Shown: one piece after another, positions 9,234 through 54,496 of the stretch
How positions within the stretch are numbered: position 1 is the first letter of the stretch
Layout: every line of letters starts with the position of its first letter
Origin: Clostridiales bacterium
GTDB taxonomy: Bacteria; Bacillota; Clostridia; Christensenellales; Aristaeellaceae
Direction of reading: 5' to 3'
Length of the DNA: 64,000 nucleotides
Assembly: GCA_015056085.1 (NCBI GenBank)
Contig: SVHA01000005.1
Span: 1-64,000, forward strand
The notes under the pieces: model-generated
Told to the model about the DNA's origin: nothing
Database searches by the model: none
What the model saw: the letters and a program-made list of their open reading frames with translations, nothing else
Made by a program: the position numbers and the translations under genes

Positions 9234-9364
9234 CCAGGGGCTTTGCCCCTGGACCCTGTCAGAGGGCTGCGCCCTCTGGACTCCTGCTTGTGGGGCTCCG
9301 CCCCACACCCCGGCAGGGGCTCCGCCCCTGCACCCCGCAAGGGTCTTCGACCCTTGACCCATTA

Positions 9365-9397
9365 CCCCAAGCCCAAGGGCTTGGGGGATTATTTGTT
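9365..9397 (+). terminator. Terminator hairpin of element copy 1, thrC side
   Basis: CCCCAAGCCC and GGGCTTGGGG with a two-base loop, followed by GATTATTTGTT. Confidence 0.75.
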
Positions 9398-9784
9398 AAG
9401 GGGATTATCCTTTGTTTATTGTTGGGACGAGTAACAACGGAGGGGACTCCGAAGGGGTCCAGGGGGCGACCGGAAAGCCCCCTGGTTGCTGTGGGGAAAA
9501 CGTGCAACAGGTATCGGATTAGAAACGGATAATCCTTTATCCAAGGTGAGGATTTCGCCCTCACGGGCGACCAAAGGGCTTTCCGATCGCCCTTTGGAAA
9601 CCTTCGGCGCGACTCCGTACATACAATTCGGAACAAGTTGCAAGCGGAACGGCACATAGGCCGTTCCCTACATTTTTCTCCGGTTATGACTACTTACAAG
9701 GATGCAAACCGAAGGGGTCCAGGGGGCGATCGGAAAGCCCCCTGGTTGTTCCACAACAGACAACAAGCAGAAAACAATTCTACC

Positions 9785-9819
9785 AACAAAAAATCCCCCA
9801 AGCCCTTCAGGGCTTGGGG
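9785..9819 (-). terminator. Terminator hairpin of element copy 1, deaminase side
   Basis: On the minus strand CCCCAAGCCC/GGGCTTGGGG is followed by GATTTTTTGTTGG; it is nearly the mirror image of the thrC-side terminator. Confidence 0.75.
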
Positions 9820-10016
9820 TGATGGGTCAAGGGTCGAAGACCCTTGCGGGGGCGTTGGGGGCAGCGCCCCCAACTGGGGTGCAGGGGCAAAGCCCCTGCT
9901 GGGGGTGTGGGGGCAAAGCCCCCACCCAGGGGTGTCGGGGGCAGGGCCCCCGACTGGGGTGTGGGGCAAAGCCACACAAAAGGGGTCCAGGGGGCGTAGC
10001 CCCTGGCAGCGCCCCG

Positions 10017-11756
10017 TTACCGCACAAACTCCTGCTTCAGGGCGTCAAACACGCCCAGCGTGGTCAGGCGCAGGGAGGGAATCACCGGCAGGGAGAGGAA
10101 ACTCAGGTTCATGAACGCGTCCACGCCTTCGTGTACGCCCCGGTCACAGGCGGCTCGCTTGCAGGCTTCCAGTTCAGCATTGACTTCCTGCAGGGGGCGG
10201 TCAGTGATCAGTCCTGCCACAGGCAGGGGCAGCCGGGCAATGATGACGCCGTTTTCCGCCACGATCATGCCGCCACCCATTTCCCGCAGGCCGTTGATGG
10301 CGGTGAGAAGGTCTTCGTCACTTACGCCGCAGGCGATGATATTGTGGCTGTCGTGGGCCACGCTGGTGGCCACAGCGCCCCGCTTGAGGCCGTAGCCTTT
10401 GACGTAGCAGCAGGCCACATGGCCCGTGTTGTGGTGGCGCTCGCACACCGCCAGCTTCAGGATGTCCGCCTCTGCGTTCACGCCGGCAGCCCTGCCGCCA
10501 TCCTGGGTGACGATCTGGCCGGGGATCATCTGAATGACAGGCGCATCGTGGAGGGCAATCTTGTCAGCGGTGACAGGCGGCAGGTGGCAGGTGTTCAGCA
10601 CGCAGGCGGCCATGTCGGGGTCGATGTCGGGGCGATTCACCAGCGCCTGTGCGCCATTATCGGCATCAAAGACGCACTGGCCCCGCTTGAACACCTGGTG
10701 GACGTTCACATCCTTCAGGTCGTCCAGCACCACGAAATCCGCCAGATAGCCGGGGGCGATGGCGCCCTTGTTGTTCAGCAGGAAATACCGGGCGGCGTAG
10801 TGGCTGGCCACCTTGATGACGGTGATGGGGTCAGCACCCAGAGCAATCGCCTTGCGGACGATGTAATCGATGTGGCCCTTTTCCATCAGGTCGGCGGGAT
10901 GTTTGTCATCGGTGGAGAACATACAGCGGTGGGCGTACTGCTCCGTCAGCAGGGGCATCAAAGCCTCCAGATTTTGGGCGGCGGTGCCTTCCCGGATCAT
11001 GATGAACTGGCCCTTGCGCAATTTTTCCAGGGCGTTTTCCAGCGTGTCGCACTCGTGGTCTGAATACACGCCGGCGGACATATAGGCATTGAGGGCCTTG
11101 CCGGAAAGTCCCGGTGCATGGCCGTCGATCTTCTTGTGATGGGCCTGGGAGACGACGATCTTTTCAATCGTCTGCCGGTTGCCCGAAAGGATGCCGGGGT
11201 AGTTCATCATTTCCGCCAGACCAAGCACCCGGGGGTGATCAAAATAGGCGTTGATGTCCCGCCAGGAGAGGGTGGCGCCGCTTTCCTCAAAGGGCGTGGC
11301 GGGCACGCAGGAGGGCAGCATGAAATGCACATCCACCGGCAGACCTTCAGAAGCGGCCATCATGTAATCAATGCCGCCCATGCCGCAGACATTGGCGATT
11401 TCGTGGGGGTCGGTGATGACGGTGGTGGTGCCGTGGGGAACCACTGCCCGGGCGAATTCCGCCGGGGACACCAGCGAACTTTCCAGATGGATGTGGGCGT
11501 CGATGAATCCCGGCGCAACGATTTTGCCGGAAACGTCCACTTCCGTTTCGCCGGCGTAATTTTCGCCCATGCCCACTACCAGACCATTGGCCACCGCAAT
11601 GTCGCCGTGGCAGATCTCATTGGTGAACACGTTGATGTAATCGGCGTTTTTCAGCACCAGGTCAGCCTTTTCTTCTCCCAGCGCCACACGGACCAGCCGC
11701 TGCTTGCGGCGGACTTTCAGGGCGATGCGTTCAGCACGGGTCTTTGCCTCAGCCAT
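10017..11756 (-). CDS. ade: Adenine deaminase
   Basis: A 579-residue amidohydrolase-superfamily enzyme that converts adenine to hypoxanthine and ammonia for purine salvage. It has the metal-binding HIHLESS motif (about residues 88-94), PHGTTTVITDPHEIAN, the conserved SDHECDT and DDKHPADL segments, and the C-terminal adenine deaminase domain (SVAHDSHNIIACG). The start at ATG 11756 follows GAAAGGAG by about 11 bases; a GTG four codons earlier overlaps that site and is unlikely. It is transcribed alone and ends in TAA at the boundary of element copy 1. Confidence 0.95.
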   Translation of the reverse strand: MAEAKTRAERIALKVRRKQRLVRVALGEEKADLVLKNADYINVFTNEICHGDIAVANGLVVGMGENYAGETEVDVSGKIVAPGFIDAHIHLESSLVSPAEFARAVVPHGTTTVITDPHEIANVCGMGGIDYMMAASEGLPVDVHFMLPSCVPATPFEESGATLSWRDINAYFDHPRVLGLAEMMNYPGILSGNRQTIEKIVVSQAHHKKIDGHAPGLSGKALNAYMSAGVYSDHECDTLENALEKLRKGQFIMIREGTAAQNLEALMPLLTEQYAHRCMFSTDDKHPADLMEKGHIDYIVRKAIALGADPITVIKVASHYAARYFLLNNKGAIAPGYLADFVVLDDLKDVNVHQVFKRGQCVFDADNGAQALVNRPDIDPDMAACVLNTCHLPPVTADKIALHDAPVIQMIPGQIVTQDGGRAAGVNAEADILKLAVCERHHNTGHVACCYVKGYGLKRGAVATSVAHDSHNIIACGVSDEDLLTAINGLREMGGGMIVAENGVIIARLPLPVAGLITDRPLQEVNAELEACKRAACDRGVHEGVDAFMNLSFLSLPVIPSLRLTTLGVFDALKQEFVR

Positions 11757-11821
11757 GGACTGCGCCACTCCTTTCGTATCAGCCGGAATATGAGGATTGT
11801 CTGCTTCAGGTTATTTTGAAT

Positions 11822-11850
11822 ATTGTATCATAAACCGGGAAGAAAAACAA
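11822..11850 (-). promoter_or_regulatory. Promoter of ade
   Basis: TTGTTT, 17-base spacer, TACAAT on the minus strand. Confidence 0.6.
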
Positions 11851-11929
11851 ACCCGCCGGGAGGGATTTTCGGCAGATATTTTCATGAAGAAGGGGAGAAA
11901 CTGGACAAAAACGGGAAGGCGGGGATGAA

Positions 11930-12616
11930 ATGAATCAGTTTGCCTTGCTGACGGCCATGGCTGCGGCGGTGGGGATGACCATGAGACGCATCAGTTCCCT
12001 CAGGAAAACCGGGCGGGAGCAGGCCGCTGGGAGGCTCTACCGGCGGGCGTCGCTGATGCTGGGGCTGGGAGCGTGGGCGGCGCTGGTGGTGCAGGAAGGC
12101 GTGCTGGCCTATTCCGGGCTGATGAACTGGCGCACCGCCCTGCCCTTGCACCTGTGCAGCGTGATGGGCCTGCTGACGCTGCCGATGCTGCTGGCCCGGT
12201 CGCCTTTTTTATGGCACAGCGCGCTGCTGCTGGGGCTTCCCGGCGGGCTGGCGGCGCTGATCTTCCCCGCCATGCTGACCACCTCGGCGCCCTTTGTGAC
12301 GGCACTGGGGTTTCACTGGCTCCACGCCACGCTGGCGGTGGCGCCCCTGATGCCCTTTGCGCTGGGAAGGCGGCCGTCACGGGCGTGTGTATGGCACGCC
12401 TGGACGCTGCTGATAGCCCTGGGCTGTCTGTGCCTCGTGGCGAATCACCTCACCGGCGGGAATTATCTCTTTCTCTCAGTGCCCGTGGCGGGAACGCCCC
12501 TGGAAGCGCTGGCGCAAGGAGGGCTGCGGGCCTATCGGCTGTCGCTGATGGCACTGGCGGGGGTGCTTCTGATAGCACAAGGGTTTGTGTGCCGCAGAAT
12601 TTGGAGATATTCGTAA
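11930..12616 (+). CDS. YwaF/TIGR02206-like integral membrane protein
   Basis: 228 residues with about six or seven hydrophobic segments. The motif ALPLHLCSVMG in the third segment and NHLTGGNYLFL near residue 180 match the YwaF/TMEM164-like family (TIGR02206), whose bacterial role is not established. The start follows GGCGGGG a few bases upstream. It lies between the divergent ade promoter and the phosphate transporter gene; about 130 bases and a weak promoter separate it from the latter, so co-transcription is possible but not certain. Confidence 0.65.
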   Translation: MNQFALLTAMAAAVGMTMRRISSLRKTGREQAAGRLYRRASLMLGLGAWAALVVQEGVLAYSGLMNWRTALPLHLCSVMGLLTLPMLLARSPFLWHSALLLGLPGGLAALIFPAMLTTSAPFVTALGFHWLHATLAVAPLMPFALGRRPSRACVWHAWTLLIALGCLCLVANHLTGGNYLFLSVPVAGTPLEALAQGGLRAYRLSLMALAGVLLIAQGFVCRRIWRYS

Positions 12617-12650
12617 AGTTTTTGCGAAAAAACAAAAAACACGCAAGAAT

Positions 12651-12678
12651 TTGGTTGTTTTTCTCTTCTGATTATGGT
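12651..12678 (+). promoter_or_regulatory. Possible promoter of the Na/Pi transporter gene
   Basis: TTGGTT, 16-base spacer, TATGGT in an AT-rich gap. It is a weak match. Confidence 0.35.
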
Positions 12679-12745
12679 ACAGTGATTGCGTATACGCAAA
12701 AAAGTGAAGAAGCAAGAAAATGCACCCAAGGAGGGAATGCAAACG

Positions 12746-14413
12746 ATGCAAGAACAAATGACGATCATGAATGTACTGCAGCTCTTTGCCGGTCTGGGAT
12801 TGTTCCTCTTCGGCATGAACATTATGAGCGAGGGCCTGGAAAAGGCTGCCGGCAAGCAGCTCAAGGGCCTGCTGGGCGCTGTGACGAAAAACCGCTTTCT
12901 GCAGGTGGTGCTGGGCTTTATCATCACGGTGCTGATGCAGTCCTCGTCTGCCACCACGGTGATGCTGGTGGGCTTTGTCAACGCCGGCATGATGTCTCTG
13001 GCTCAGACGGTGGGCGTCATCATGGGCGCCAACATCGGCACCACGGTCACGGCGCTGATGCTCTCTGTCAACATCGACTTTGAAATCATCTTCTGCTTTG
13101 TGGGCATGATTCTGCTGTTCCTGCCCAGCAAGAAGTTCAAGGGCCTCAAGCAGTTTGTGCCGGTCATTATCGGTCTGGGCATCCTGTTCATCGGCATGGA
13201 TTATATGTCCAAGGCCATGGTGCCTCTCCGCGGCTCCGAGGTGTTCAAAAACGCCATTCAGAACGTGAGCAACCCCATCATCGGCGTGCTGCTGGGCGCC
13301 GGCATCACGGCGCTGCTGCAGTCCTCTGCTGCTTCCATCGGTATCCTGCAGTCTCTGGCGGCTGCTGGGCTGATTCCCTTCCAGACCTGTATTTTCATCC
13401 TCTTCGGCCAGAACATCGGCACCTGCATCACCGCCATTCTGGCCTGCATGGGCACCAATGCCACCGCCAAGCGCACGGCGATGGTGCATCTGCTGTTCAA
13501 CGTCATCGGCACGGTGATCTTCGTGGCCATCGCCTGGATTTTCCCGCTTCACACCTGGATCGAAGCCCTCACCCCTGGCGGAGTGGAAGAGATGATCAAG
13601 CTGCGCATCGCTGTGACGCACATCATCTTCAACCTGGGCACGACGGCGCTGCTGTTGCCCTTTGCCTCCCTGCTGGAGAAGGCCGCCTGCCTGCTGGTGC
13701 GGCCCGACAAGGAGACGGCCAACGCTCAGCCCATGCAGCTGATTCACTTCGACCAGCGTCTGCTCAACACGCCGCCCATTGCCGTTGCCCAGCTGTTCAA
13801 CGAAGTGCAGCGCATGGGCGACATCGCCCTGAGCAGCTATCGTGGGGCCGTGCAGTGCTTTGCTTCCTGGGATGACGCCGCCGCTGAAGAAATCAACCGT
13901 AATGAAGACGTGCTGGACTTCCTCAACAAGGAGATCACTTCCTGTCTGGTGGAAGTCAAGGGCCTTGACCTGAATGAAAAGGACACGAGGCTGGTGGGCT
14001 CCCTGTTCCATGTGGTGAACGATATGGAACGTGTGGGCGACCACAGCCAGAATATTCTGGAAGCCGCTCAGATGCGCCACGACGAGGAGATCAAGTTCTC
14101 CGGCAAGGCCATTGGTGAATTGGAAGACCTCTCCGCCAAGGTGCTGGGCCAGCTGGAGGAAGCCATGCGGATCTTCCGCGGCCAGGTGGGCAGCGATGCT
14201 GAACTGGGCCGGCTGGAAGCCTGCGAGCAGGAGATTGACAACCTGACCGAGGCGCTGCGTGTGCATCATGTGGAGCGCCTGAAGAACCGCAAGTGCTCTG
14301 CCCGCAATGGTATGCTGTATCTGGATATGCTCACCAACCTGGAGCGTATCGGCGACCATGCGGAGAATATTGCCACCTCCGTGGATGTGGTGGTGCCCGC
14401 CTACGTCAAGTAA
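12746..14413 (+). CDS. Na/Pi cotransporter family protein with PhoU-like C-terminus
   Basis: A 555-residue protein. The first about 310 residues are an NptA-type sodium-phosphate symporter with the two inverted QSS repeats (MQSSSATTVMLVGFVNAG and LLQSSAASIGILQSLAAAG) and the paired GANIGTT/GQNIGTC motifs. The last about 210 residues are a helical PhoU-like domain (NDMERVGDHSQNI, LERIGDHAENI), thought to sense or tune phosphate uptake. The start at ATG 12746 is 11 bases after AAGGAGG; ATG 12737 is too close. It stands alone and ends (TAA) at hairpin-array copy 2. Confidence 0.9.
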   Translation: MQEQMTIMNVLQLFAGLGLFLFGMNIMSEGLEKAAGKQLKGLLGAVTKNRFLQVVLGFIITVLMQSSSATTVMLVGFVNAGMMSLAQTVGVIMGANIGTTVTALMLSVNIDFEIIFCFVGMILLFLPSKKFKGLKQFVPVIIGLGILFIGMDYMSKAMVPLRGSEVFKNAIQNVSNPIIGVLLGAGITALLQSSAASIGILQSLAAAGLIPFQTCIFILFGQNIGTCITAILACMGTNATAKRTAMVHLLFNVIGTVIFVAIAWIFPLHTWIEALTPGGVEEMIKLRIAVTHIIFNLGTTALLLPFASLLEKAACLLVRPDKETANAQPMQLIHFDQRLLNTPPIAVAQLFNEVQRMGDIALSSYRGAVQCFASWDDAAAEEINRNEDVLDFLNKEITSCLVEVKGLDLNEKDTRLVGSLFHVVNDMERVGDHSQNILEAAQMRHDEEIKFSGKAIGELEDLSAKVLGQLEEAMRIFRGQVGSDAELGRLEACEQEIDNLTEALRVHHVERLKNRKCSARNGMLYLDMLTNLERIGDHAENIATSVDVVVPAYVK

Positions 14414-14519
14414 GTGGGTCGGGGGCTTTGCCCCGCACCCCTTTGCGGGGCTTTGCCCCACACCCCAGCAGGGGCTCCGCCCCTGCACCCCGCAAGGGCC
14501 ATTGGCCCTTGACCCATCA

Positions 14520-14556
14520 CCCCGAAATCCTGAAGGATTTCGGGGGATTTCTTTTA
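14520..14556 (+). terminator. Terminator hairpin of element copy 2, left side
   Basis: CCCGAAATCC and GGATTTCGGG, followed by GGATTTCTTTT. Confidence 0.75.
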
Positions 14557-14952
14557 TGGAGTAGTCTTGTGCATCGGACTTGTCTTTCCCGGTACAACCA
14601 GGGGGCTTTCCGATCGCCCCCTGGACCCCTTCGGCCTGCATCCTTGTAAGTAGACTTTGCCGAAACAATGAAAACCGTTCCTCCAACAAACAGGTTCATA
14701 TCTCTTCATCCGGAGGGAACCCGAAGGTTTCCAAAGGGCGATCGGAAAGCCCTTTGGCGGGGTGTGGGGCAGAGCCCCACAAAGACCAACTCGGCAAGGA
14801 AAACCGTTCCTCCAACAAACAGGTTAATACCCCTTTATCCGGGGGGGGAACCCGAAGGTTTCCAAAGGGCGATCGGAAAGCCCTTTGGTCGCCCGTGAGG
14901 GCGAAACCCCACCTTGCAGACAGGATCTTGCCGTTGGCAAAAGTTGTGCAAC

Positions 14953-15340
14953 GGCACAAAGAAAAGCCCCCTCCGGGAGGGGGCTCCGCCGTTAGGCGGT
15001 GGGGGAGCCTGCGCTGCTGCGGGTATGACCTCTTGCAAGGGATAGCGCTTGTTGGGTGTTCTTTCTCAGGCCTGAGAAAGAACCAAAGAGGGCCAGAGGG
15101 GGTGTCTCAATTCATCCCACCCGGAGACACCCCCTCTGGACTCCCCCCTTTCCCCCGGTCTTGTGAGAGTTATTGGGTTGACTGACCCACAAACGCCTCG
15201 CGGGGGCGGCCCGTTTCGGGGTCGCTCCGATGGAGTCCGTGTGCGGCGACGGAGCGCCGCACGCCGGAACTGTTGTAGAGGAGCGGGTGCGAGGTGTGCT
15301 TCGGTTTGTTGCCGGAGCAAAGTCAACTCACAAGGATGCA
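14953..15340. repeat. Central block of the hairpin-array element (in copy 2), 388 bp
   Basis: The block holds a CCCCCTCC/GGGAGGGGG hairpin, CCGCC/GGCGG, a perfect 24-bp palindrome (15059-15082, half-site TTCTTTCTCAGG), a 16-bp inverted repeat (CCAGAGGGGGTGTCTC at 15093-15108, its complement at 15124-15139) and a GTGCGGCG/CGCCGCAC hairpin. Matching blocks of 386-390 bp are present in three other elements in the same orientation. Confidence 0.85.
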
Positions 15341-15443
15341 GCCCGAAGGTTTCCAAAGGGCGATCGGAAAGCCCTTTGGTCGCCCGTGAGGGCGAAACCT
15401 CATCCTTCAAAAAAAGAGTAGCCTGAAAGGAAAAACCCACATA

Positions 15444-15478
15444 CAAATAATCCCCCAAGCCCTTCAGGGCTTGGGGTG
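15444..15478 (-). terminator. Terminator hairpin of element copy 2, right side
   Basis: On the minus strand, CCCCAAGCCCT and AGGGCTTGGGG are followed by GATTATTTGT. Confidence 0.75.
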
Positions 15479-15611
15479 ATGGGTCAAGGGCCAATGGCCC
15501 TTGCGGGGGTATCGGGGGCAGCGCCCCCGATTGGGGTGCGGGGCAAAGCCCCGCTGAAGGGTGCAGGGGCAGCGCCCCTGCAGGGGGGTCCAGGGGGGAT
15601 CACCCTCCTGG

Positions 15612-19131: not shown

Positions 19132-19286
19132 CCAGGGGCTCCGCCCCTGGACCCTTTTGCGGGGCGTTGCCCCACACCCCAGTTGGGGGCGCCGCCCCCA
19201 ACACCCCTATTGTGGGGCTCTGCCCCACACCCCGGCAGGGGCGCCGCCCCTGCACCCTGCAAGGGGCATCGCCCCTTGACCCATCA

Positions 19287-19320
19287 CCCGGGAATCCTAA
19301 CGGATTTCCGGGGTGTTTTG
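19287..19320 (+). terminator. Terminator hairpin of element copy 3, left side
   Basis: CCCGGGAATCC pairs (with one mismatch) with GGATTTCCGGG, followed by GTGTTTTGTTTT. Confidence 0.7.
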
Positions 19321-19421
19321 TTTTGGGGTAGTCTTATGGATTTGGCTTGTCTTTGCCGGATAAACCAGGGGGCTTTCCGATCGCCCCCTGGACCCCTTCG
19401 GATGTGAGTAGTCTTAACAGT

Positions 19422-19809
19422 GGCACAAACAAAAGCTCCCTCCGGGAGGGGGCTCCGCCGTCAGGCGGTGGGGGAGCCTGCGGTGCTGCGGGTATGACCT
19501 CTTGCAAGGGATATTGTTTGTTGGGTGTTCTTTCTCAGGCCTGAGAAAGAACCAAAGAGGGCCAGAGGGGGTGTCTCAATTCATCCCACCCGGAGACACC
19601 CCCTCTGGACTCCCCCCTTTCCCCCGGTCTTGTGAGGGTTATTGAGTTGAGTTACCCTCAAACGCCTCGCGGGGGCGGCCCGTTTCGGGGGCGCTCCGAT
19701 GGAGTCCGTGTGCGGCGACGGAGCGCCGCACGCCGGAACTGTTGTGGAGGAACGGGTACGAAGTGCACTTCGGTTTGTTGCCGAAGCAAAGTCAACTCAC
19801 AAGGATGCA
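19422..19809. repeat. Central block of the hairpin-array element (in copy 3), 388 bp
   Basis: Same architecture and orientation as the block at 14953-15340. The 24-bp palindrome is at 19528-19551 and is identical. Most differences lie near the end of the block. Confidence 0.85.
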
Positions 19810-19890
19810 GACCGAAGGGGTCCAGGGGGCGATCGGAAAGCCCCCTGGTTGCTTCAGAACAGACAATCCAAATTTATAAGTCTACCCAAA

Positions 19891-19927
19891 ACAAGAACAC
19901 CCCGGAAATCCTTCAGGATTTCCGGGT
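19891..19927 (-). terminator. Terminator hairpin of element copy 3, right side
   Basis: On the minus strand CCCGGAAATCCT/AGGATTTCCGGG is followed by GTGTTCTTGTTTTG. Confidence 0.7.
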
Positions 19928-20031
19928 AATGGGTCAAGGGTCGAAGACCCTTGCGGGGTCCAGGGGCGGCGCCCCTGGTGGGATTCCAAAGGGCAAAGCC
20001 CTTTGGCCGGGGGGCAGGGGCGGAGCCCCTG

Positions 20032-20442
20032 TTAAATGATGTACTCCTTCATGAAGGCAGGCAGAGCCTCGGGATCGGCGCTGACGGACAGGACGAAGGT
20101 GACATTGTGCTTTTCGCCGTAGGCCTTCAGGTTGGCAAAGAAGCCTTCCGCCTCGGCGATGTCCATCTTGATCAGCTTGAGGAAAGCATCGATGAAGATG
20201 GTGCCGATGTCATAGTTGCTGGCCAGCATGCCGCCCAGGAAGCCCAGGAACATATCGCCGGTCTGCACATTGTAGTCCTTCACGTTGACGAAACGGACGG
20301 TGCGGTCGATTTCGTACATATAGTCATTATTCTTGTCCAGGAAGACGACGTTGCTGGAGCTGGTCTTGGCGACGTCGTTGGTCATATTGATCAACCGCTT
20401 GGTCTTACCGGAGCCCTTGTTACCTGCGATAATCTGAATCAT
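20032..20442 (-). CDS. Small P-loop ATP-binding protein of unknown role
   Basis: 136 residues. Walker A is at the very start (AGNKGSGKT, about residues 6-14) and a Walker B-like strand (IGTIFIDAF) follows near residue 80. The rest is mostly alpha/beta with no added domain, no membrane segment and no signal. It resembles a minimal nucleotide-binding fold of the kind annotated as twitching-motility or ATP-binding hypothetical proteins in Clostridia; I do not recognise a named family. AAGGAGG precedes the start. It is a single-gene unit with a promoter that contains an inverted repeat. Confidence 0.65.
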   Translation of the reverse strand: MIQIIAGNKGSGKTKRLINMTNDVAKTSSSNVVFLDKNNDYMYEIDRTVRFVNVKDYNVQTGDMFLGFLGGMLASNYDIGTIFIDAFLKLIKMDIAEAEGFFANLKAYGEKHNVTFVLSVSADPEALPAFMKEYII

Positions 20443-24043: not shown

Positions 24044-25000
24044 ATGGCTGGCAGCGGCATCACCGTGGTGATGGCAACCTATGATCCCCCGGCCCATTGG
24101 CTGCGGGAGCAGCTCCAGAGCGTCGCAGCGCAGGCGCTTCCCCCGGAAAAGGTGCTGATTCTGGATGACTGCAGCCCCCATACGGAACTGGAGGACATCA
24201 GGCGCATCCTGACGGAAACGCTGGGCGAATTGCCCTGGGAACTGACCCGGAATGAGGAAAATCAGGGCAGCAATGAAACCTTCGCCGCCCTGATTCAGCA
24301 GGTGGAAACGCCCTATGTGGCCTTCTGCGATCAGGATGACCGCTGGATGCCCCACAAGCTGGAAACCCTCCTTGGTCAGATGCAGGACGACCGTGTGACG
24401 GCGGTGTGCTCCGATCAGCAGATCATCGATGGCGAAGGCAAGGTGCTGTTTGACAGCATCACCCAGGCCATGCCTCATATTCACTTCAGAAGCGGGGAAA
24501 ATCTGGCGCCGGGGCTGCTCAAGGATAACTTCATGTCCGGCTGCACCATGCTCATGCGGACGGAGATTGCCAAGGCCGCCCTCCCCCTTGTGCCGGGAAT
24601 GGTGTACGATCACCATCTGGCGCTGTTTTCAGCCGCCCGGGGCAAGGTGATTTCCCTGCCCGAAGCGCTGATCGCCCACCGCATTCACGGCAACAACCAG
24701 ACCGGCCCCCTGGGGGACATCCGCACCAAGGCGGACTACATCGCAAAGCGCGTGGAGCCCTTTGCCCGGCGCATGGCGGCCTTGAAAGACCGCATCGACC
24801 TGGGCCAGCCCCAGCGCACGCTGGAAGACTGGGCCAGCGCCCGTCTGGATTACAGCCGGCGGGTGAAGGGCGCCGGAAAGCGCCTGCTGCGCCTGCGCCG
24901 GTGTTCTCAAGGCGTGACGCTGTTTGAACTGCTGTTGCCGCTGATGCCGGGATGTATGTTCCGCTTCGTGCTCAAGGCGCTTCAAAGGGGCAAAATCTGA
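24044..25000 (+). CDS. Family 2 glycosyltransferase
   Basis: 318 residues with a GT-A fold N-terminus: ITVVMATYDPP, VLILDDCSPHTE, and the catalytic/metal FCDQDDRWMPHKL region near residue 95. The layout resembles rhamnosyltransferase-type GT2 enzymes that build cell-surface polysaccharide. There is no clear membrane helix, apart from a mildly hydrophobic C-terminus. The start at ATG 24044 follows AGGAGG. It is a lone gene, not part of a polysaccharide cluster, so the acceptor cannot be guessed. Confidence 0.85.
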   Translation: MAGSGITVVMATYDPPAHWLREQLQSVAAQALPPEKVLILDDCSPHTELEDIRRILTETLGELPWELTRNEENQGSNETFAALIQQVETPYVAFCDQDDRWMPHKLETLLGQMQDDRVTAVCSDQQIIDGEGKVLFDSITQAMPHIHFRSGENLAPGLLKDNFMSGCTMLMRTEIAKAALPLVPGMVYDHHLALFSAARGKVISLPEALIAHRIHGNNQTGPLGDIRTKADYIAKRVEPFARRMAALKDRIDLGQPQRTLEDWASARLDYSRRVKGAGKRLLRLRRCSQGVTLFELLLPLMPGCMFRFVLKALQRGKI

Positions 25001-29414: not shown

Positions 29415-29703
29415 CCAGAGGGACATACCCTTTGGAATCCCACCAGGGGCGCTGTCCCTGGACCCCTTGTGCGGGGCGTTGCCCCGCACCCTGATCGGGA
29501 GCGCTGCCCCCGATACCCCCGCAAGGGCCAAATAAAACTACTTGCATCCGAAGGTTTCCAAAGGAAACGAACTGCCCAGTGGGCAGTCGCCGAAGGCGAG
29601 TTTCCGGAGCGAAGCGGAGGCGGACGATCGGAAAGCCCTTTGGTCGCCCGTGAGGGCGAAACCTTACCTTGCACAAAAGACTTCTTTGTAGAGAAGAATG
29701 CAA

Positions 29704-30093
29704 TGGTACAAAGAAAAGCCCCCTCCGGGAGGGGGCTCCGCCGTAAGGTGGTGGGGGAGCCTGCGCTGCAGCGGGCATGATTTCTTGCAAGGGGTAGTGC
29801 TTGATAGGCGTTCTTTCTCAGGCCTGAGAAAGAACCAAAGAGGGCCAGAGGGGGTGTCTCAATTCATCCCACCCGGAGACACCCCCCTCTGGACTCCCCC
29901 CTTTCCCCCGGTCTTGTGTGGGTTATTGGGTTGACTGCCCCACAAACGCCTCGCGGGGGCGGCCCGTTTCGGAGTTGCTCCGATGGAGTCCGTGTGCGGC
30001 GACGGAGCGCCGCACGCCGGAACTGTTGTGCCGGAGCGGGTGCGAAGCGTGTTTCGGTTTGCTGCCGGAGCAAAGTCAACTCACAAGGATGCA
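29704..30093. repeat. Central block of the hairpin-array element (in copy 4), 390 bp
   Basis: Same architecture and orientation as the other blocks. The 24-bp palindrome at 29811-29834 is identical; the long inverted repeat has one extra C compared with the other copies. Confidence 0.85.
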
Positions 30094-30199
30094 GCCCGAA
30101 GGTTTCCAAAGGGCGATCGGAAAGCCCTTTGGTCGCCCGTGAGGGCGAAACCTCACCTCGCATAAAAGAATAGTCTGAAAGGAAAAACCCACATACAAA

Positions 30200-30230
30200 C
30201 AATCCCCCAAGCCCGTCAGGGCTTGGGGTG
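30200..30230 (-). terminator. Terminator hairpin of element copy 4, right side
   Basis: On the minus strand CCCCAAGCCCTGACGGGCTTGG region forms the stem and is followed by GATTGTTTGT. No minus-strand gene precedes it. Confidence 0.6.
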
Positions 30231-30380
30231 AAGGGTCAAGGGTCGAAGACCCTTGCGGGGTGCAGGGGCGGCGCCCCTGCCGGGGTGTGGGGCAGAGCCC
30301 CACAAGCAGGAGTCCAGAGGGCGCAGCCCTCTGGCGGGGTGCAGGGACGGAGTCCCTGCAAACAGAAAGAAGGTGAGAAC

Positions 30381-31577
30381 GTGCGTAAGAGGTTGCCTCA
30401 TCTGTCGTATGTGGTGGCGCCGCTGACAGTGCTGCTGGCGCTTCTGGCGGTGGCAGCCTTCACCGGCGAGTGGCCCACAGCAACCCATGGCTACAATTCC
30501 TATGTGCTGCAGGCACAGGCGTGGCTGGATGGGCGGCTGGATCTGGGGCTGGACTATCCCTGGCTGGAACTGGCGATTTATGAAGGCAAGTACTTTGTCA
30601 GCTTTCCGCCCTTTCCTTCCTATGTAATGCTGCCCTTTGTGGCCTTGAATGGCATTTTCATCTCCGATGGCTTCATCGCCTGGGCGGTGACGCTGCTGGG
30701 CGCCGTCTATGCCACGGCGCTGTATCGCCACTATCGCCGGGATGACAAGGGCGTGTTCTGGGTGACATTCCTGTATCTGGGCACGGGCGCCATCTTCATC
30801 AGCCTGAACGCCTGGGTGTGGTTCATCGCCCAGTCGATGTGCTTCACCCTGTCGCTGATGGCCATCACCCATGCAGCAAAGGGCCATGGCGGCATGGCGC
30901 TGACCTGCTGGGCGTGTGCGGTGGGCTGCAGACCCATGGCGGCTGTGTATCTGCCGGTACTGGTGATGCTGCTGTACCAGGCGCACCGCCCGACATCTGT
31001 GCTGAAGTGGGTGAAAAGGCGCTGGTACTGGGCGATTGGCCCCTGCCTGCTGGCGGCGTCCTATATGTGGCTGAACTGGGCCAGGTTCGGCAACGTCCTG
31101 GAGTTCGGGCACAACTACCTGCCGGAGTTCGTTCAGGCGGAAAACGGCCAGTTTTCCCTGGCATACCTGACGAAAAACCTGAATCTGCTGCTGCGGATGC
31201 CTGTCTTCACCAACGGTGAAAGCCCGCTTATCTTTGAAAAGTTCGATACCATGGCCTTCTGGCTGATCAACCCCATGTTCATCAGCATCTTCATCGCCTG
31301 GGTGATGGCGCTGACGAAGAAGGGCAAGCGGGGCGAAGCCATCCTGCTGATGGCGCTGGCCCTTTGCCATGTGTTCATCATCTGCTGCCACAAAACGCTG
31401 GGCGCGTGGCAGTTCGGCAACCGGTATCTGGTGGATCTGATGCCCTGGCTGTTCCTGGGGCTGATGAAATGGATGCCGGAGAAGTCCCGCCTGACGCTGA
31501 TCAGTCAGCCGCTGATGATCTGGGGCGTGCTGATCAACCTGATGGGCACGGTAGCGGTCTATAATCGATGGATCTAA
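30381..31577 (+). CDS. Polytopic membrane protein, GT-C glycosyltransferase-like
   Basis: 398 residues with about ten hydrophobic segments. The first extracytoplasmic loop contains a long region after helix 1 (TATHGYNSYVLQAQAWLDG, then GKYFVSFPPFPSYVMLP), similar in layout to GT-C or mannosyltransferase-type proteins with an acidic catalytic loop, but I see no clear family signature. A GTG start at 30381 follows AAGGTGAG; upstream in-frame sequence lies inside the hairpin array and is not credible as protein. It ends before a strong terminator. Function unknown. Confidence 0.65.
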   Translation: MRKRLPHLSYVVAPLTVLLALLAVAAFTGEWPTATHGYNSYVLQAQAWLDGRLDLGLDYPWLELAIYEGKYFVSFPPFPSYVMLPFVALNGIFISDGFIAWAVTLLGAVYATALYRHYRRDDKGVFWVTFLYLGTGAIFISLNAWVWFIAQSMCFTLSLMAITHAAKGHGGMALTCWACAVGCRPMAAVYLPVLVMLLYQAHRPTSVLKWVKRRWYWAIGPCLLAASYMWLNWARFGNVLEFGHNYLPEFVQAENGQFSLAYLTKNLNLLLRMPVFTNGESPLIFEKFDTMAFWLINPMFISIFIAWVMALTKKGKRGEAILLMALALCHVFIICCHKTLGAWQFGNRYLVDLMPWLFLGLMKWMPEKSRLTLISQPLMIWGVLINLMGTVAVYNRWI

Positions 31578-49229: not shown

Positions 49230-49274
49230 TCAGGGGCCCACAAGAAATACTGAATCAACCGGGAGGAATAACCG

Positions 49275-50225
49275 ATGGAGCAGCTGACCGTCAGTCAACT
49301 GACAAAGGACCTGCGCTTTGAGGGCTTTCTGCTGGTGCGCTCGGCGGATCAACGCACGGGCAGCAACGGCAGCAAGTATCTGGATATGAATCTGACCGAC
49401 CGCACGGGCGAGATCAACTGCAAGGTGTGGGACGGCACAGTACAGCCCCCTGCCGCCGGCACGGTGATCAAGGTGCGGGGCCTGGTGCAGGAGTACAACG
49501 GCCGTCTGCAGCTGCGGGTGGAGCGCCTGCGCTACACCAACGAAGCAGACGGCGTGGACCTGAGCCTGCTGGTGCCCTGTGCGCCGGAAAGCCCGGAGGT
49601 CATGATGGCTGAGGTGGATGAGACCATCGACCGCTTTGCCTCGGAGGATCTGAAGAAACTGGTGCGGGAAATGCTCCGCCTGGCGGGGGACAAGCTGCCC
49701 TGGTTCCCGGCGGCCCAGCGTCTGCACCATGCTGAGCGCAGCGGACTGCTGCATCACATGACCGGGATGCTGCGCACCGCCGAGCACATCATCGCCGCCT
49801 ATCCCTTTTTGAAGGGCGATCTGCTTCGGGCGGGCGTGATTCTCCACGACCTGTCCAAGATCACCGAGATGAAGTCCGACGAGCTGGGCAACGTCACCGA
49901 TTACACCCGTGACGGCTTGCTGATCGGCCATCTGGTGCGCGGTGTGGCCCGTCTGGCGGAAGCGGCAAAGAATGTGGGCGTGGAAGGCGAGATGGTGGTG
50001 CTGCTGGAGCACATGATCATCAGCCACCACGGCGAGGCACAGTTTGGTTCGCCCCGGATGCCCATGTTCCCCGAAGCCGAGGTGCTGCACTGGCTGGACA
50101 TTCTGGACGCCCGCATGAACGAGATGCAGGGCATCATGGACAGGGTGCCGGAAGGTGCTTTCTCCGAGAAAATCTGGAGCCTGGACAGGCGGATGTATCA
50201 TCCTACCTACGAAGGCCTGGAATAA
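49275..50225 (+). CDS. YhaM-type 3'-5' exoribonuclease (OB-fold plus HD domain)
   Basis: 316 residues. An N-terminal OB-fold (about 1-95, MNLTDRTGEINCKVWD) is followed by an HD phosphohydrolase domain with H-HH at RSGLLHHMTGM, GVILHDLSKITEM (about 191) and MIISHHGEAQFGSP. This is the YhaM/CbfA architecture, a 3'-5' exoribonuclease in Bacillus and Streptococcus. ATG 49275 follows CGGGAGGA. It follows dnaB by 45 bases. Confidence 0.9.
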   Translation: MEQLTVSQLTKDLRFEGFLLVRSADQRTGSNGSKYLDMNLTDRTGEINCKVWDGTVQPPAAGTVIKVRGLVQEYNGRLQLRVERLRYTNEADGVDLSLLVPCAPESPEVMMAEVDETIDRFASEDLKKLVREMLRLAGDKLPWFPAAQRLHHAERSGLLHHMTGMLRTAEHIIAAYPFLKGDLLRAGVILHDLSKITEMKSDELGNVTDYTRDGLLIGHLVRGVARLAEAAKNVGVEGEMVVLLEHMIISHHGEAQFGSPRMPMFPEAEVLHWLDILDARMNEMQGIMDRVPEGAFSEKIWSLDRRMYHPTYEGLE

Positions 50226-50300
50226 TGGGCGGAAGATTCCGCCTGCATCAATCGTTGACTGTGTGGAAGAACTTTCCGCATGAAAAATGGAGGGAAAACC

Positions 50301-51125
50301 ATGAAAAAGATGCTGTTTGTGCTGGCCGTGCTGGCGTGTGCCCTGGTGATGACTGCCTGCCAGAGCGGTGGTCAGAAGTTTGAAGTGATCAACAACCAGC
50401 CGCAGTCTCAGTCCACCCAGAACCTGAACATCACTCCCAGCACCGATGTGCCCGATCTGGACTATGACTTCAACACCGGCGATTACGATCCCACCAGCGA
50501 GGAAGGCATCGGCGATGAAGACCCCACGCTGGGCTTTGCCGAAGCGCCTGCTGTGGTGACGCAGGCTCCCACTGTCCGCAGCGACTATGCCGGCGCTACG
50601 CCCGTGGTGGTCAATCCCATCGATATGCCCACCCCCACTGTTGTGCCGCCGCTGACCTTTGCCTATCAGGCCTATGACGCCGCGGCCCTGCAGCTGTCCT
50701 TTGAAGGCCCTGTGGGCTGGGTGGTGGACGAGAGCGTGGCAAACACCTACACCATCTATAACCCCAACCCCGCCATGGATTACGCTGCGGCGCTGACCAT
50801 CCAGCGTGTGCCCGTGACGTCTGACTACAACAAGTCTGACCTGAAGAAGGAAGTCCAGGCCATGCTGTCTTCCATCGGCAACACTGGCTTTGCGGAGTTT
50901 GACAAGTCCAACACCGCCGAGCGCACGCTGATCGGCCACGACGGCATCTATGCCAACTACACCGGCACGCTGCACGACGGCACCAAGGTGGCCGGCCGCG
51001 TGCACATCACCTGCATTGACCGGGTGCTGTACAAGGTGCACATCACCTATCCCCGCGCCTACACCGAGACCTACAAGGAACTGGTGTATGACAAGCTGCG
51101 GGATACCATCACCCTGACCAAGTAA
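50301..51125 (+). CDS. Putative lipoprotein of unknown function
   Basis: 274 residues. The signal has a lipobox (ALVMTACQSG), so it should be membrane-anchored after processing by Lgt and Lsp. A proline/threonine-rich, acidic linker (about 30-120) precedes a compact domain with YDAAALQLSFEGPVGWVVDES, of unknown family. ATG 50301 follows GGAGGG. Part of the co-directional run starting at rplI. Confidence 0.75.
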   Translation: MKKMLFVLAVLACALVMTACQSGGQKFEVINNQPQSQSTQNLNITPSTDVPDLDYDFNTGDYDPTSEEGIGDEDPTLGFAEAPAVVTQAPTVRSDYAGATPVVVNPIDMPTPTVVPPLTFAYQAYDAAALQLSFEGPVGWVVDESVANTYTIYNPNPAMDYAAALTIQRVPVTSDYNKSDLKKEVQAMLSSIGNTGFAEFDKSNTAERTLIGHDGIYANYTGTLHDGTKVAGRVHITCIDRVLYKVHITYPRAYTETYKELVYDKLRDTITLTK

Positions 51126-51150
51126 GCATCTGCAAAGGAAGGCGAGCGCC

Positions 51151-51615
51151 ATGGAGATGACCCGGCGGGAACAAAAAGCCGTGGAGTTCTTTACCAGCGG
51201 CGACAACTGCGCTCAAGCGGTTTTCAAGGCCTATGCCGATGTGGCGGGCCTGACGGAAGACCAGGCGGCTATGGTGGCTGTGGGCTTTGGCGGCGGCATC
51301 GGACGGATGCGGCAGAACTGCGGCGCTTTTTCCGCTGCGGTGATGCTCTGCGGTGCGCTGGAAGGCCCGCAAGGCGCCGATGCAGACGTCCGCACCGATG
51401 TATACCGCCGGGTACAGCTGACCCATGCCCGTTTCCTGGAAAAGACGGGGTCGATCTCCTGCGCTGAACTGCTTAACCGCAAGGCGGGCACCGAAGGCGT
51501 TGCTCCTGACGAGCGCACGGCGGAATACTATGCCAAGCGGCCCTGCGTAGGCATCGTCCGCGCGGCGTGTCAGGTGATTGACGAGCAACTGGCTGAAAAA
51601 GACGGCCAGCGCTGA
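51151..51615 (+). CDS. C_GCAxxG_C_C family protein
   Basis: 154 residues. Cysteines in FTSGDNCAQAVFKAYA, IGRMRQNCGAFSAAVMLCGAL, SISCAEL and PCVGIVRAAC follow the C_GCAxxG_C_C pattern of small redox-active or cofactor-binding proteins, though the GCAxxG element reads GAFSAAVM here. The start follows AGGAAGG. It is 25 bases after the lipoprotein gene; a redox role is inferred from the cysteines only. Confidence 0.7.
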   Translation: MEMTRREQKAVEFFTSGDNCAQAVFKAYADVAGLTEDQAAMVAVGFGGGIGRMRQNCGAFSAAVMLCGALEGPQGADADVRTDVYRRVQLTHARFLEKTGSISCAELLNRKAGTEGVAPDERTAEYYAKRPCVGIVRAACQVIDEQLAEKDGQR

Positions 51616-51684
51616 CGCCTGAATCATCAGCCAAATCAACAAAATCAGTACCGAAGCAACTGCCCGGCACGGAAAGGATGCGCC

Positions 51685-52839
51685 ATGAAGGCATTGATTC
51701 TCTCTGCCAACCTGGGAGGCGGACATAATGCGGCTGCAAACGCCCTGTCGGAAGCCCTCCAGGAAATGGGCGTGGAAACCCGGGTGATGGACAGCGTTGC
51801 CTTTGGCGGCGCATGGCTGAGCAAGACGTCCACCAAGGTGTATGAAGGCATGGTGCGCCATGTTCCTTCCGCCTTTGGCATGATGTATCGCTCCAGCCGC
51901 AGCATCAGCCATCACCGGGTCAAATCCCCGGTGTATGTGATGAATTCCACCTACGCCTTCCGGATGAAAAAAGTGCTCAAAAGCATGAAGCCGGACTTGA
52001 TCATCTGCACGCATATTTTTGCTTCCCAGAGCGTGACGCACCTGATTCATAACGGCGATTATCGGGGCATTCATGCAATGATTATGACGGACTACACCGT
52101 GCATCCCTTCACGGAAGATGCAGAGGTGGACGTGCTGTATATGCCCCACGAGGCGCTGTTGGATGACTGCCGCCGACGGCATCTCCCGGAAGCGACGGTG
52201 CGCTTTGCCGGCATTCCGGTGAGCCTGGCCTGCCAGCCCTGCGAGGACAAGAAAGCCGCCAAGCGGGCAGTCGGCCTTGACGAAAACGGCCAGGAAGTGC
52301 TGCTGGTGGGCGGCGCCATGGGCGCTGGCAACATCCCCGAAACGGTGGCTGCCCTTGTGCCCATTCTGGGAGAGAAGGGCCATCTCACAGTAGTGTGCGG
52401 AAACAATGAAAAACTGCGGGCAGCCGTGGCTGAAAAGGTGGCCGGAAACAAGCGTGTGACGGTCAGAGGCCGTGTGGTGCCCCTGACGGCGGCCATGGCG
52501 GCTGCTGATGTGCTGGTGACCAAGCCAGGCGGGCTGACGTCCACTGAGGCCATGACCATCGGCACGCCCATGGTGATCGTCAACCCCATTGCGGGCTGCG
52601 AGACGGACAATGCGGCCTTCTTTGAAAAGCGGGGCATGGCGCTGTGCGCCCATTCAAAGGAGGAACTGGCCACCAAGGTGGAACTGCTCCTGCAGGATGA
52701 GGACGCCCGCCAGAAAATGGTGGAAAATCAGCACAGGGAGATTCCCGCTGACAGCGCCCGGCAGATCGCCCGGGAACTGGTGGAAATGGTCTGGGAACAC
52801 AAGGGGCATCGGCCCATGGAAAAGGAACTGACGATATGA
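51685..52839 (+). CDS. Diacylglycerol glucosyltransferase-like (UgtP/MGDG synthase) GT28 enzyme
   Basis: 384 residues. The N-terminal ILSANLGGGHNAAANALSEAL is the lipid-binding loop of MGDG synthase/UgtP-type enzymes; the C-terminal half has the GT28 sugar-nucleotide site (VLLVGGAMGAG, VRGRVVPLTAAMAAADVLVTKPGGLTSTEAM). It probably adds glucose or galactose to diacylglycerol at the inner membrane face for glycolipid or lipoteichoic acid anchors. The start follows GGAAAGGATG. Its end overlaps the next gene by four bases. Confidence 0.9.
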   Translation: MKALILSANLGGGHNAAANALSEALQEMGVETRVMDSVAFGGAWLSKTSTKVYEGMVRHVPSAFGMMYRSSRSISHHRVKSPVYVMNSTYAFRMKKVLKSMKPDLIICTHIFASQSVTHLIHNGDYRGIHAMIMTDYTVHPFTEDAEVDVLYMPHEALLDDCRRRHLPEATVRFAGIPVSLACQPCEDKKAAKRAVGLDENGQEVLLVGGAMGAGNIPETVAALVPILGEKGHLTVVCGNNEKLRAAVAEKVAGNKRVTVRGRVVPLTAAMAAADVLVTKPGGLTSTEAMTIGTPMVIVNPIAGCETDNAAFFEKRGMALCAHSKEELATKVELLLQDEDARQKMVENQHREIPADSARQIARELVEMVWEHKGHRPMEKELTI

Positions 52840-53351
52840 AAGAAAAGATGGTTGTCTCCTCCGACAAACTGGTGGTGGGCCTGGCACTGGCGCTGCCGCT
52901 GCTGGCGCTGGGATTGGTGGTCTCCGGCGGCTTGCTGATTTTCGGCGGGCCCAACGGTCCGGTGACGTCGCTGATGGTGCTGATGGTGCTGGCAGGGGCG
53001 TATCTGGTGAGCATCCGCAGTTATTTCGGCACCTACACCTTTCTGCCGGCGGATGAATACCACGGCGCCCGGATTATCGTGGAAATCGGCAACAAGCGCT
53101 ATGAGGTCGCCGGTGTACCCGCTTCTGATTTCACCGTCGGGCAGACGGCGCTGGAAAAGTGGCGCCATGTGGGCCATGTGAAGGTGAAGGACAGTATGCT
53201 GCGCTTGCGCGGCGTTCCTCGCCTGGACGACGTACAGGCTTTCATCACGGCGAACTTCCCCGAAAGGAAGGAAGTCCGGGAGCAGCAGGCTGCCCGCAAA
53301 GCCGCCCAGGAGAAGGCCCTGAGCAACGCAAAGAAGAACAAAGCCCGGTGA
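52836..53351 (+). CDS. Membrane protein with PH-like domain, unknown function
   Basis: 171 residues. Two hydrophobic helices (LVVGLALALPLLALGLVVSG and TSLMVLMVLAGAYLVSI) are followed by a soluble region (GTYTFLPADEYHGARIIVEIG) that resembles bacterial PH-type membrane domains, then a basic tail. The start overlaps the glucosyltransferase stop (ATGA). TGA stop and element copy 5 are contiguous (TGACCAGGGG). Confidence 0.55.
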   Translation: MKEKMVVSSDKLVVGLALALPLLALGLVVSGGLLIFGGPNGPVTSLMVLMVLAGAYLVSIRSYFGTYTFLPADEYHGARIIVEIGNKRYEVAGVPASDFTVGQTALEKWRHVGHVKVKDSMLRLRGVPRLDDVQAFITANFPERKEVREQQAARKAAQEKALSNAKKNKAR

Positions 53352-53511
53352 CCAGGGGGTTATGCCCCCTGGACCCCCCTGTGGGGCTCCGCCCCACACC
53401 CCGGCCAAAGGGCTTTGCCCCGCACCCCACCAGAGGGCTTTGCCCTCTGGACTCCCAATCGGGGGCGCTGCCCCCGATACCCCCGCAAGGGCCATTGGCC
53501 CTTGACCCATC

Positions 53512-53550
53512 ACCCGGAAATCCCGAAGGATTTCCGGGGTGTTTTGTTTT
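53512..53550 (+). terminator. Terminator hairpin of element copy 5, left side
   Basis: CCCGGAAATCC and GGATTTCCGGG, then GTGTTTTGTTTT. Confidence 0.75.
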
Positions 53551-53819
53551 GGGGTAGTCTTATGGATTTGGCTTGTCTTTACCGAGACAACCAGGGGGCT
53601 TTCCGGTCGCCCCCTGGACCCCTTCGGCTTGCTCCCTACCGACAATCTTGAGCAAGCAACAAAGAAAAACCGTTCTTCCGACAAACAGGCTCATACTCCC
53701 TTCATCCGGAGGGAGCCCGAAGGTTTCCAAAGGGCGATCGGAAAGCCCTTTGGTCGCCCGTGAGGGCGAAACCCTCGCCTCGCAGACAAAACCTTGTCTT
53801 TACGGAAAAGTTGTGAACC

Positions 53820-54205
53820 GGCATAAAGAAAAGCCCCCTCCGGGAGGGGCTCCGCTGTCAGGCGGTGGGGGAGCCTGCGCTGCTGCGGGTATGACCTCTT
53901 GCAAGGGATAGCGCTTATTGTGTGTTCTTTCTCAGGCCTGAGAAAGAACCAAAGAGGGCCAGAGGGGGTGTCTCAATTCATCCCACCCGGAGACACCCCC
54001 TCTGGGCTCCCCCCTTTCCCCCTGTCTTGTGAGTGTTATTGAGTAGACTTACCCTCAAACGCCTCGCGGGGGAGGCCCGTTTCGGGGCTGCTCCGATGGA
54101 GTCCGTGTGCGGCGACGGAGCGCCGCACGCCGGAACTGTTGAGGAGGAACGGGTACGAAGTGTACTTCGGTTTGTTGCCGAAGCAAAGTCAATTCACAAG
54201 GGGCA
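53820..54205. repeat. Central block of the hairpin-array element (in copy 5), 386 bp
   Basis: Same architecture and orientation. The 24-bp palindrome is identical at 53925-53948. A TGTTGA change puts a stop into one reading frame that is open in the other copies, against a coding role for that frame. Confidence 0.85.
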
Positions 54206-54283
54206 GCCCGAAGGGGTCCAGGGGGCGATCGGAAAGCCCCCTGGTTGTACCGGGAAAGACAAGACCGATGCACAAGACATCTC

Positions 54284-54323
54284 CAAAAAAGAACACCCCG
54301 GAAATCCTTCAGGATTTCCGGGT
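54284..54323 (-). terminator. Terminator hairpin of element copy 5, right side
   Basis: On the minus strand CCCGGAAATCCT/AGGATTTCCGGG then GTGTTCTTTTTTG. Confidence 0.75.
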
Positions 54324-54496
54324 AATGGGTCAAGGGTCGAAGACCCTTGCGGGGTGCAGGGGCGGAGCCCCTGCCGGGGTGTGGGGCAGAGCCCCGCAAG
54401 CAGGAGTCCAGAGGGCAACGCCCTCTGGCGGGGCCCAGGGGCGGAGCCCCTGCTGGGGTGCGGGGCAACGCCCCGCCAAAGGGCAAAGCCCTTTGG

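Follow-up and report, generated by a model that had tools for sequence, protein, structure and literature searches.

Paired hairpin-chain tails, mostly between convergent genes, of a Clostridiales genome: candidate two-way transcript-end cassettes built of REP-like hairpins

Repetitive extragenic palindromes (REP) and bacterial interspersed mosaic elements (BIME), whose palindromes carry GTAG and CGTC tags, are described in the available text of PMC3733652 as short, extragenic, high-copy sequences that stand downstream of genes, between convergent and between unidirectional neighbors, that occur as opposed pairs and that are likely transcribed. Here we analyze five large intergenic hairpin arrays in the first 64,000 nucleotides of contig SVHA01000005.1 from a Clostridiales bacterium (hereafter, “the window”; contig C15 of a 2.08-Mb draft genome with 26 contigs, 94.8% complete) and their relatives elsewhere. 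Our preferred reading, to which we give a probability of roughly 0.6, is that these arrays are bidirectional transcript-end (terminator) cassettes made of REP-like hairpins and amplified in this lineage.

Read from the outside in, a half-element consists of a hairpin chain, a hairpin containing CAAGGG (K), a terminator hairpin (T hairpin) and a module (M) composed of a stem, the loop UUUCCGRUC, the second stem strand and then CCUUCGG. Under the preferred reading, a half that faces a gene end would be that gene’s 3′ untranslated tail, in which a chain starting at the stop codon is followed by an intrinsic terminator pointing along the gene. Two such tails, genome-wide predominantly of different kinds (A with B), would stand back to back, separated by M modules and in some elements also by a structured central block. 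Transcripts from both sides would traverse their own hairpin chain and stop at the T hairpin before the opposing gene, and the pair would block read-through from both sides of a convergent junction. The chain would place the terminator ~160 nt behind the stop codon, beyond the reach of the last ribosome, and its hairpins would give the mRNA a folded 3′ end, against 3′ exonucleases. The hairpin units would have spread through the lineage as REP-like repeats, displacing native 3′ ends. Termination and protection in the cell, and the spread by copying, are what we infer from the observations below.

Placement, polarity and the two kinds of half

The strict module pattern RRGGGCGATCGGAAAGCCCYY occurs 231 times in the genome (reversed pattern, 0) and the hairpin pattern GGGGCNNNGCCCC 666 times (reversed pattern, 4). 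We examined two sets of stretches in which genes were called by a codon model seeded with 13 genes from Pfam results; stops are firm and starts less so. The first set comprises 40 stretches around elements plus the window (664 kb, holding 176 of the 231 strict modules and 483 of the 666 hairpins), and the second comprises 14 stretches away from the listed element matches (280 kb). Counting intergenic gaps of at least 40 nt, we find 70 element gaps in these 944 kb. Elements occupy 45 of 79 convergent, 23 of 175 tandem and none of 84 divergent gaps in the first set. Both sets were picked with elements in view and neither yields true fractions; those per gap class are inflated because the first-set stretches were chosen around elements, and it is the contrast between classes that is the result. 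Convergent gaps of the first set have a median length of 1,136 nt with an element versus 90 nt without (n = 34, maximum 456). The 68 first-set element gaps total 73.9 kb, from which we estimate, scaling by module count, that elements take up ~95–100 kb, or 4–5% of the genome.

The halves are closely tied to stop codons. A gene 3′ end is faced by 101 of 115 halves; in 99 of them the first stem could be located relative to the stop codon, at a median distance of 3 nt and within 5 nt in 55. The other 14 face a gene start at a distance of 26–208 nt, none within 5 nt. Typical junctions read TGA|CCAGGGG or TAA|GCAGGGG, and at some the native terminator comes first. Most halves (102/115) contain 3–7 hairpins, K included, with triloops that are pyrimidine-rich in the sense of the gene (TTT, GCT, ATT and TCT being most frequent).

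The T hairpins have the form of intrinsic terminators, that is, a GC-rich hairpin followed in gene sense by a U-rich stretch: the next 15 nt contain 8.4 T versus 3.0 on the other side (n = 132, Wilcoxon p 9e-24), and a T run of at least 4 follows in 88 of 132. A terminator is detected in 93 of 113 3′-facing halves versus 13 of 23 5′-facing ones (p 0.012). T hairpins lie at a median of 159 nt behind the stop codon (93 tails); the terminator-like hairpins seen at 35 other gene ends lie at 18 nt. In E. coli, according to the text available from PMC4824070, ribosomes repress a terminator that follows a stop codon at short distance; a setback of ~160 nt by a chain of several hairpins would fit such a constraint because ribosomes could then no longer reach the terminator. 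For the left chain of element 3, the predicted fold has an energy of −123 kcal/mol (z −6.8). The first-pass annotation had listed a transcription-insulating device between colliding genes among its suggestions, an idea that the oriented terminators predicted on both sides of the elements back.

The halves come in two kinds. In type A, the T hairpin is CCCCAAGCCC, followed in 35 cases by <M with an AAAGGG stem; in type B, it is CCCGGAAATCC or a near variant, followed in 37 cases by <M with a GG stem. Exceptions are A hairpins whose next module has a GG stem, either as M> (18) or as <M (9), along with 3 further cases; after 23 T hairpins no module was seen. Where both terminator types could be read (n = 42 elements), we find 30 AB, 8 AA and 4 BB, with AB above chance pairing (p 0.003). 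Terminator types of the two halves agree in 14 of 44 versus 21 by chance, so the two halves tend to differ. That both halves are copies of each other was rejected on this tendency and on the innermost hairpin types, which agree in 19 of 47 versus 14.5 by chance (p 0.09). In RGIG2676, which carries module M as well, the two stems of a pair are of different types in 23 of 23 inward-facing M pairs, the combination being AGAGGG with AGGG in 22 (no stem was preset). Judged by these two pairings, A and B seem to be opposite ends of an older unit, or else the AB excess may arise because near-identical inverted halves are unstable.

Anatomy of the five window elements

The five elements lie where the first-pass annotation had placed them, as read from gene stops and hairpins, and four of them are indeed between convergent genes, the remaining one between tandem genes (Table 1). 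Those four span the whole gap from stop codon to stop codon, whereas the tandem element starts at a stop codon and ends 32 nt short of the next forward gene. Hairpin-like sequence follows the left stop directly or within a few bases in all five (the first hairpin being imperfect in the elements at 14414 and 29415), and the convergent four end likewise at the opposing gene. The five gaps hold 60 of the 69 strict GC-rich hairpins of the window.

The order of parts that had been proposed as common is complete in three elements (14414, 19132, 53352); the one at 9234 has no central block, and the one at 29415 lacks a left terminator, has a broken left K and carries an additional hairpin within its first module (ACTGCCC-AGT-GGGCAGT, apparently another small repeat). 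The description as a giant inverted repeat holds in that the halves are inverted, and is better replaced by two 3′ tails of two kinds facing each other. The longest inverted arms are 171 nt (85%) at 19132 and 172 nt (82%) at 53352, with 59 nt (85%) at 9234, 64 nt (86%) at 14414 and only 33 nt (73%) at 29415.

That one locus was misassembled five times is ruled out by the different flanking genes and by the central blocks, which are 91–95% alike in the four window copies and diverge by 2–12% among near-full copies. Contig ends call for caution: of the 17 stretches inspected there, 6 fall within such elements (one of the 17 ends 155 nt before its contig does). Within two further elements (locus L190, C11, about 8581–9692; locus L193, C12, about 24053–24960), module–terminator units stand in tandem at spacings near 167 and 279 nt, and in several the join seems, by eye, to fall in the loop of the CAAGGG hairpin. 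Density is uneven along the assembly: the first ~340 kb (about 1–339,000) of contig C10 of this genome (548 kb) contain no module or chain hairpin in the pattern lists, and other contigs carry many. A chimeric assembly was rejected as the cause, coding composition being broadly alike across stretches, with GC content at third codon positions (GC3) somewhat lower on C10.

Table 1. Parts of the five elements, in positions of the window
Feature	Positions	Strand	Details
Element 1, left tail	9234..9356	+	four hairpins from ThrC stop codon, then K 9338-9356
Element 1, left terminator hairpin	9365..9386	+	type A
Element 1, three M modules	9449..9748	.	M> 9449-9488, <M 9570-9607, M> 9709-9748; no central block
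Element 1, right half	9796..10016	-	terminator 9796-9819 (A), K 9828-9846, chain to adenine deaminase gene stop
Element 2, left half	14414..14545	+	chain (first hairpin imperfect), K 14493-14511, terminator 14520-14545 (B)
Element 2, modules	14598..14909	.	<M 14598-14634, M> 14720-14757, M> 14851-14909; triloop hairpin 14763-14781 between
Element 2, central block copy	14962..15341	+	95% to element 3
Element 2, right half	15342..15611	-	M> 15342-15400 (plus-strand orientation), terminator 15453-15476 (A), K 15485-15503, chain to stop
Element 3, left half	19132..19312	+	chain from RadA stop, K 19260-19278, terminator 19287-19312 (B)
Element 3, <M module	19365..19401	-	
Element 3, central block	19430..19810	+	reference copy
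Element 3, right half	19812..20031	-	M> 19812-19848 (plus-strand orientation), terminator 19901-19926 (B), K 19935-19953, chain to stop of gene 20032-20442
Element 4 (tandem gap), left part	29415..29526	+	chain, imperfect first hairpin, broken K (CAAGGG), no terminator
Element 4, M> module	29548..29663	+	split by ~57-nt insert with further hairpin 29571-29587
Element 4, central block copy	29714..30094	+	91%
Element 4, right half	30096..30360	-	M> (plus-strand orientation), terminator 30205-30228 (A), K 30237-30255, chain; faces 5′ side of gene 30393-31577 (+)
Element 5, left half	53352..53538	+	chain from stop codon, K 53486-53504, terminator 53513-53538 (B)
Element 5, modules	53590..53775	.	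<M 53590-53627, M> 53717-53775
Element 5, central block copy	53829..54201	+	95%
Element 5, right half	54206..54496	-	M> (plus-strand orientation), terminator 54297-54322 (B), K 54331-54349, chain to DUF4340 gene stop

Congeners, module M and the question of mobility

The triloop hairpin followed by CCCC is found in 17 of 17 congeners, with 2–52 hits versus 182 here (reversed control 0 or 1, which a few congeners barely exceed). In four congeners, 11 of 15 hairpin places, fetched from pattern hits and read by eye, are one-sided chains of 2–4 hairpins at the stop codon or 1 nt behind it; among five places from four other genera, also read by eye, two of genome G030 have hairpins 11–17 nt behind the stop. 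At the two window genes compared, no chain is present in the congeners: none of 15 at RadA (both strands read; one contig ends 102 nt past the gene, and one congener has a single hairpin at the stop) and none of 14 at ThrC (both strands read). Both tails were therefore gained in this lineage, that of RadA at a break in gene order: 11 of 15 congeners have a forward gene of 308–369 aa located 16–62 nt downstream, where this genome has an element and an opposing gene instead. The gene that follows RadA in most congeners has no match in this draft, which is incomplete and was searched without a positive control. A wider table of 85 ortholog pairs (79 with a tail in neither genome, 5 only here, 1 only in the relative) contains too few tails, and its classifier calls locus L053 “far” although hairpins stand at that stop codon.

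Amplification of this kind is also what one would expect if the elements were selfish mobile repeats only, with hairpin units and A/B cores that transpose and accumulate behind stop codons, where harm is least, and with terminator activity as a passenger. We consider this possible but rather unlikely as the whole account. The strict module is present 231 times here versus 0–17 times in each of the 17 congeners, central block copies are 88–98% alike, divergent gaps hold no element, and outside this genome the module stands in mobile-looking units. Most of the 14 M pairs of RGIG2676 that were read with their flanks sit, by eye, in units of ~300 nt with inverted ends like GGTTCTTCACG / CGTGAAGAACC, which match the end of a repeat in congener G001 that encodes the C terminus of an ISL3 transposase. 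ISL3-type elements make an 8-bp target-site duplication; near-repeats of the kind were seen by eye, in RGIG2676 only, at two or three of 14 units. Matches to mobility genes are present in other carriers too: 4 of 8 further module-bearing genomes match the Y1 transposase, and G061, G012 and G008 match reverse transcriptases.

Against this account stands the mobility search in the genome itself. The search covered just three families (PF01797, PF00078 and PF01610) and gave no match to a Y1 transposase, a reverse transcriptase or an ISL3 transposase in this 94.8% complete draft (the Y1/RAYT control being positive in 5 of 14), and we reject the presence of a RAYT or reverse transcriptase in this draft. 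The heavy carriers G060 and G061 have no Y1 match either. ISL3-like ends gave 1 chance-like hit in the sample from this genome versus 27 in RGIG2676 loci; the earlier suggestion that the elements resemble miniature inverted-repeat transposable elements (MITEs) therefore fits module M in RGIG2676, and mobility of the whole element is conjectural. Moreover, random insertion alone fails to explain the starts within 5 nt of a stop codon, or the sense orientation of the modules that abut stops.

Module M sits in different mobile-looking units in different species. Of 106 named module-bearing stretches, the 80 listed come from Clostridia, Clostridiales, Ruminococcus or Lachnospiraceae metagenome-assembled genomes (MAGs), many from ruminant guts, and the module pattern is found in 45 viral-contig stretches. 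With a 59-nt query taken from the window, partial or full matches were obtained in 9 human-gut phage records that lack annotation, 2 of them over 80% of the query, and none among plasmids. The sequence CCGAAGG, although no part of the search pattern, precedes nearly every hairpin: 161 of 171 in the named loci, 60 of 62 in the viral ones and 200 of 204 in stretches of this genome. The commonest loop is GATCGGAAA and the second commonest GACCGGAAA.

The stem of M covaries. In 52 distinct copies, 94.7% of cells are paired versus 84.6% in shuffles (score 0.274 versus 0.100), and both partners vary at five pairs; of the five measures taken, two (the number of such pairs, and pair types) are no higher than in shuffles. 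A CCGA–TCGG pseudoknot is unproven because only one of its four pairs varies at all, and that one is broken in 9 of 52 copies when read in the M> sense (the other sense would give G–U). In gene sense, M adjoins the stop of an open reading frame of at least 300 nt in 21 of 55 viral and 16 of 168 MAG copies, versus 2 and 0 in antisense; using called genes, it stands at a stop codon in 13 of 87 cases versus 0 of 87. We tentatively suggest, while thinking it doubtful, that M represents a novel class of RNA hairpin linked to stop codons, perhaps an H-type pseudoknot, that Clostridia have in common with their phages. It would stand directly behind stops in gene sense and act at the end of translation or in mRNA 3′-end formation, and this lineage would have adopted it and amplified it within its giant cassettes. 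None of the tested loci match an Rfam family at gathering score, and the module offers a concrete target for RNA work.

Several side observations concern M and its surroundings. Nine contigs of G001 (L343–L351) have in common a repeat of 133–146 nt coding the ISL3 transposase C-terminus, and L346, the only one read, has the repeat edge GGTTCTTCACGGAAAGTTAGGGA, resembling the ends of the RGIG2676 units. In BRZ_BV bin18 (loci L039, L076, L082, L087, L098 and L107), a single M lies within a unit of ~230 nt with ends near CAGACTGTTGAAAAAGG and CTTTGTCAACAGTCTG; similar hairpins are found on both flanks of the unit in L039 and L076. Two viral contigs of ~5 kb (L221 and L229) have four M-like hairpins each, with some of the surrounding sequence in common. 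Finally, the M loop begins with GATCGGAA, which we take to be the first bases of a common sequencing adapter, and this may trip adapter trimming in assemblies of such genomes.

Remaining alternatives and comparison with known systems

The reading as two-way transcript ends has points against it. In the second set, none of the 21 convergent or 22 divergent gaps holds an element, and 2 of the 94 tandem gaps do; elements are therefore not required at every convergent junction. The terminator in 13 of the 23 halves facing a gene start would be superfluous if halves were purely gene tails, and chain length is alike in 3′- and 5′-facing halves (4.5 versus 3.9, p 0.14). In the window itself, AB pairing is seen in one element, against one AA and two BB; the fifth has a single terminator. 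The ribosome argument, by analogy with E. coli, may not hold in Clostridia.

Two other explanations fare worse. Relief of positive supercoils between convergent genes has been proposed for some BIMEs, and arrays that extrude cruciforms or bind gyrase or a nucleoid protein could act likewise at the DNA level; the preference for convergent gaps and the long inverted repeats would suit such a role, but the strand-asymmetric triloops, the polarity of the terminators and the abutment of chains to stops in sense point to RNA, and we regard a DNA-level function as very improbable. Least credible of all is a large noncoding RNA gene made of central block and modules with the tails as its ends: the block folds well as RNA (−187 kcal/mol, z −4.5), but element 1 and further elements of the gap table lack it, and it occurs in either orientation, has recurring cut points near positions 72, 97/98 and 320, and matches no Rfam family at gathering score in the window. 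The first-pass suggestion of strong structure, in itself, is borne out by the folds of the left chain and central block and by the covarying stem of M.

If the reading as transcript-end cassettes is true, a genome of 2.08 Mb, small for its genus (2.2–3.3 Mb in the 17 congeners), spends an estimated 4–5% of its length on modular two-way transcript ends. It would then offer a natural test of how transcription is separated at convergent genes and of how repeats turn into gene ends.

No named family with this plan had been recognized at first sight, and this is upheld by our searches of Rfam and of the literature. At gathering score, Rfam returns only two tRNAs in the window and nothing in 12 other module-bearing loci, and a known Rfam RNA was rejected accordingly; matches in one element stay below threshold (e.g., Clostridiales-2, 21.3 bits versus 58.6). 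The literature search, with most subscription journals and bioRxiv outside its reach, found no description of such an element. Likeness to described systems is nevertheless considerable. As with MITEs related to ISL3, most M units of RGIG2676 have inverted ends common to an ISL3-coding repeat, but such ends are absent from the sample of this genome. As in bidirectional intrinsic terminators, two oriented terminators face each other between convergent genes, but here each is set back ~160 nt by its chain, and the pair is a dispersed repeat with modules between.

The likeness to REP and BIME is in high-copy extragenic palindromes (20–40 nt) downstream of genes, in their location between convergent or unidirectional neighbors, in their opposed pairs and in their probable transcription. 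The differences are that the GTAG and CGTC tags occur in 2 and 0 of 623 hairpins here (control tetramers, 1 and 23) and in 0 and 0 of 173 modules, that this draft has no Y1/RAYT match, and that the palindromes here form ordered one-kilobase cassettes with U-tract terminators, whose chains begin at stop codons. As the searches for tags and RAYT here, for ISL3-like ends in the sample and for Rfam families in the loci covered came back negative, membership of these named families fails. Not REP by the tests of tag and transposase, the elements would work like a bidirectional terminator made of REP-like repeats.

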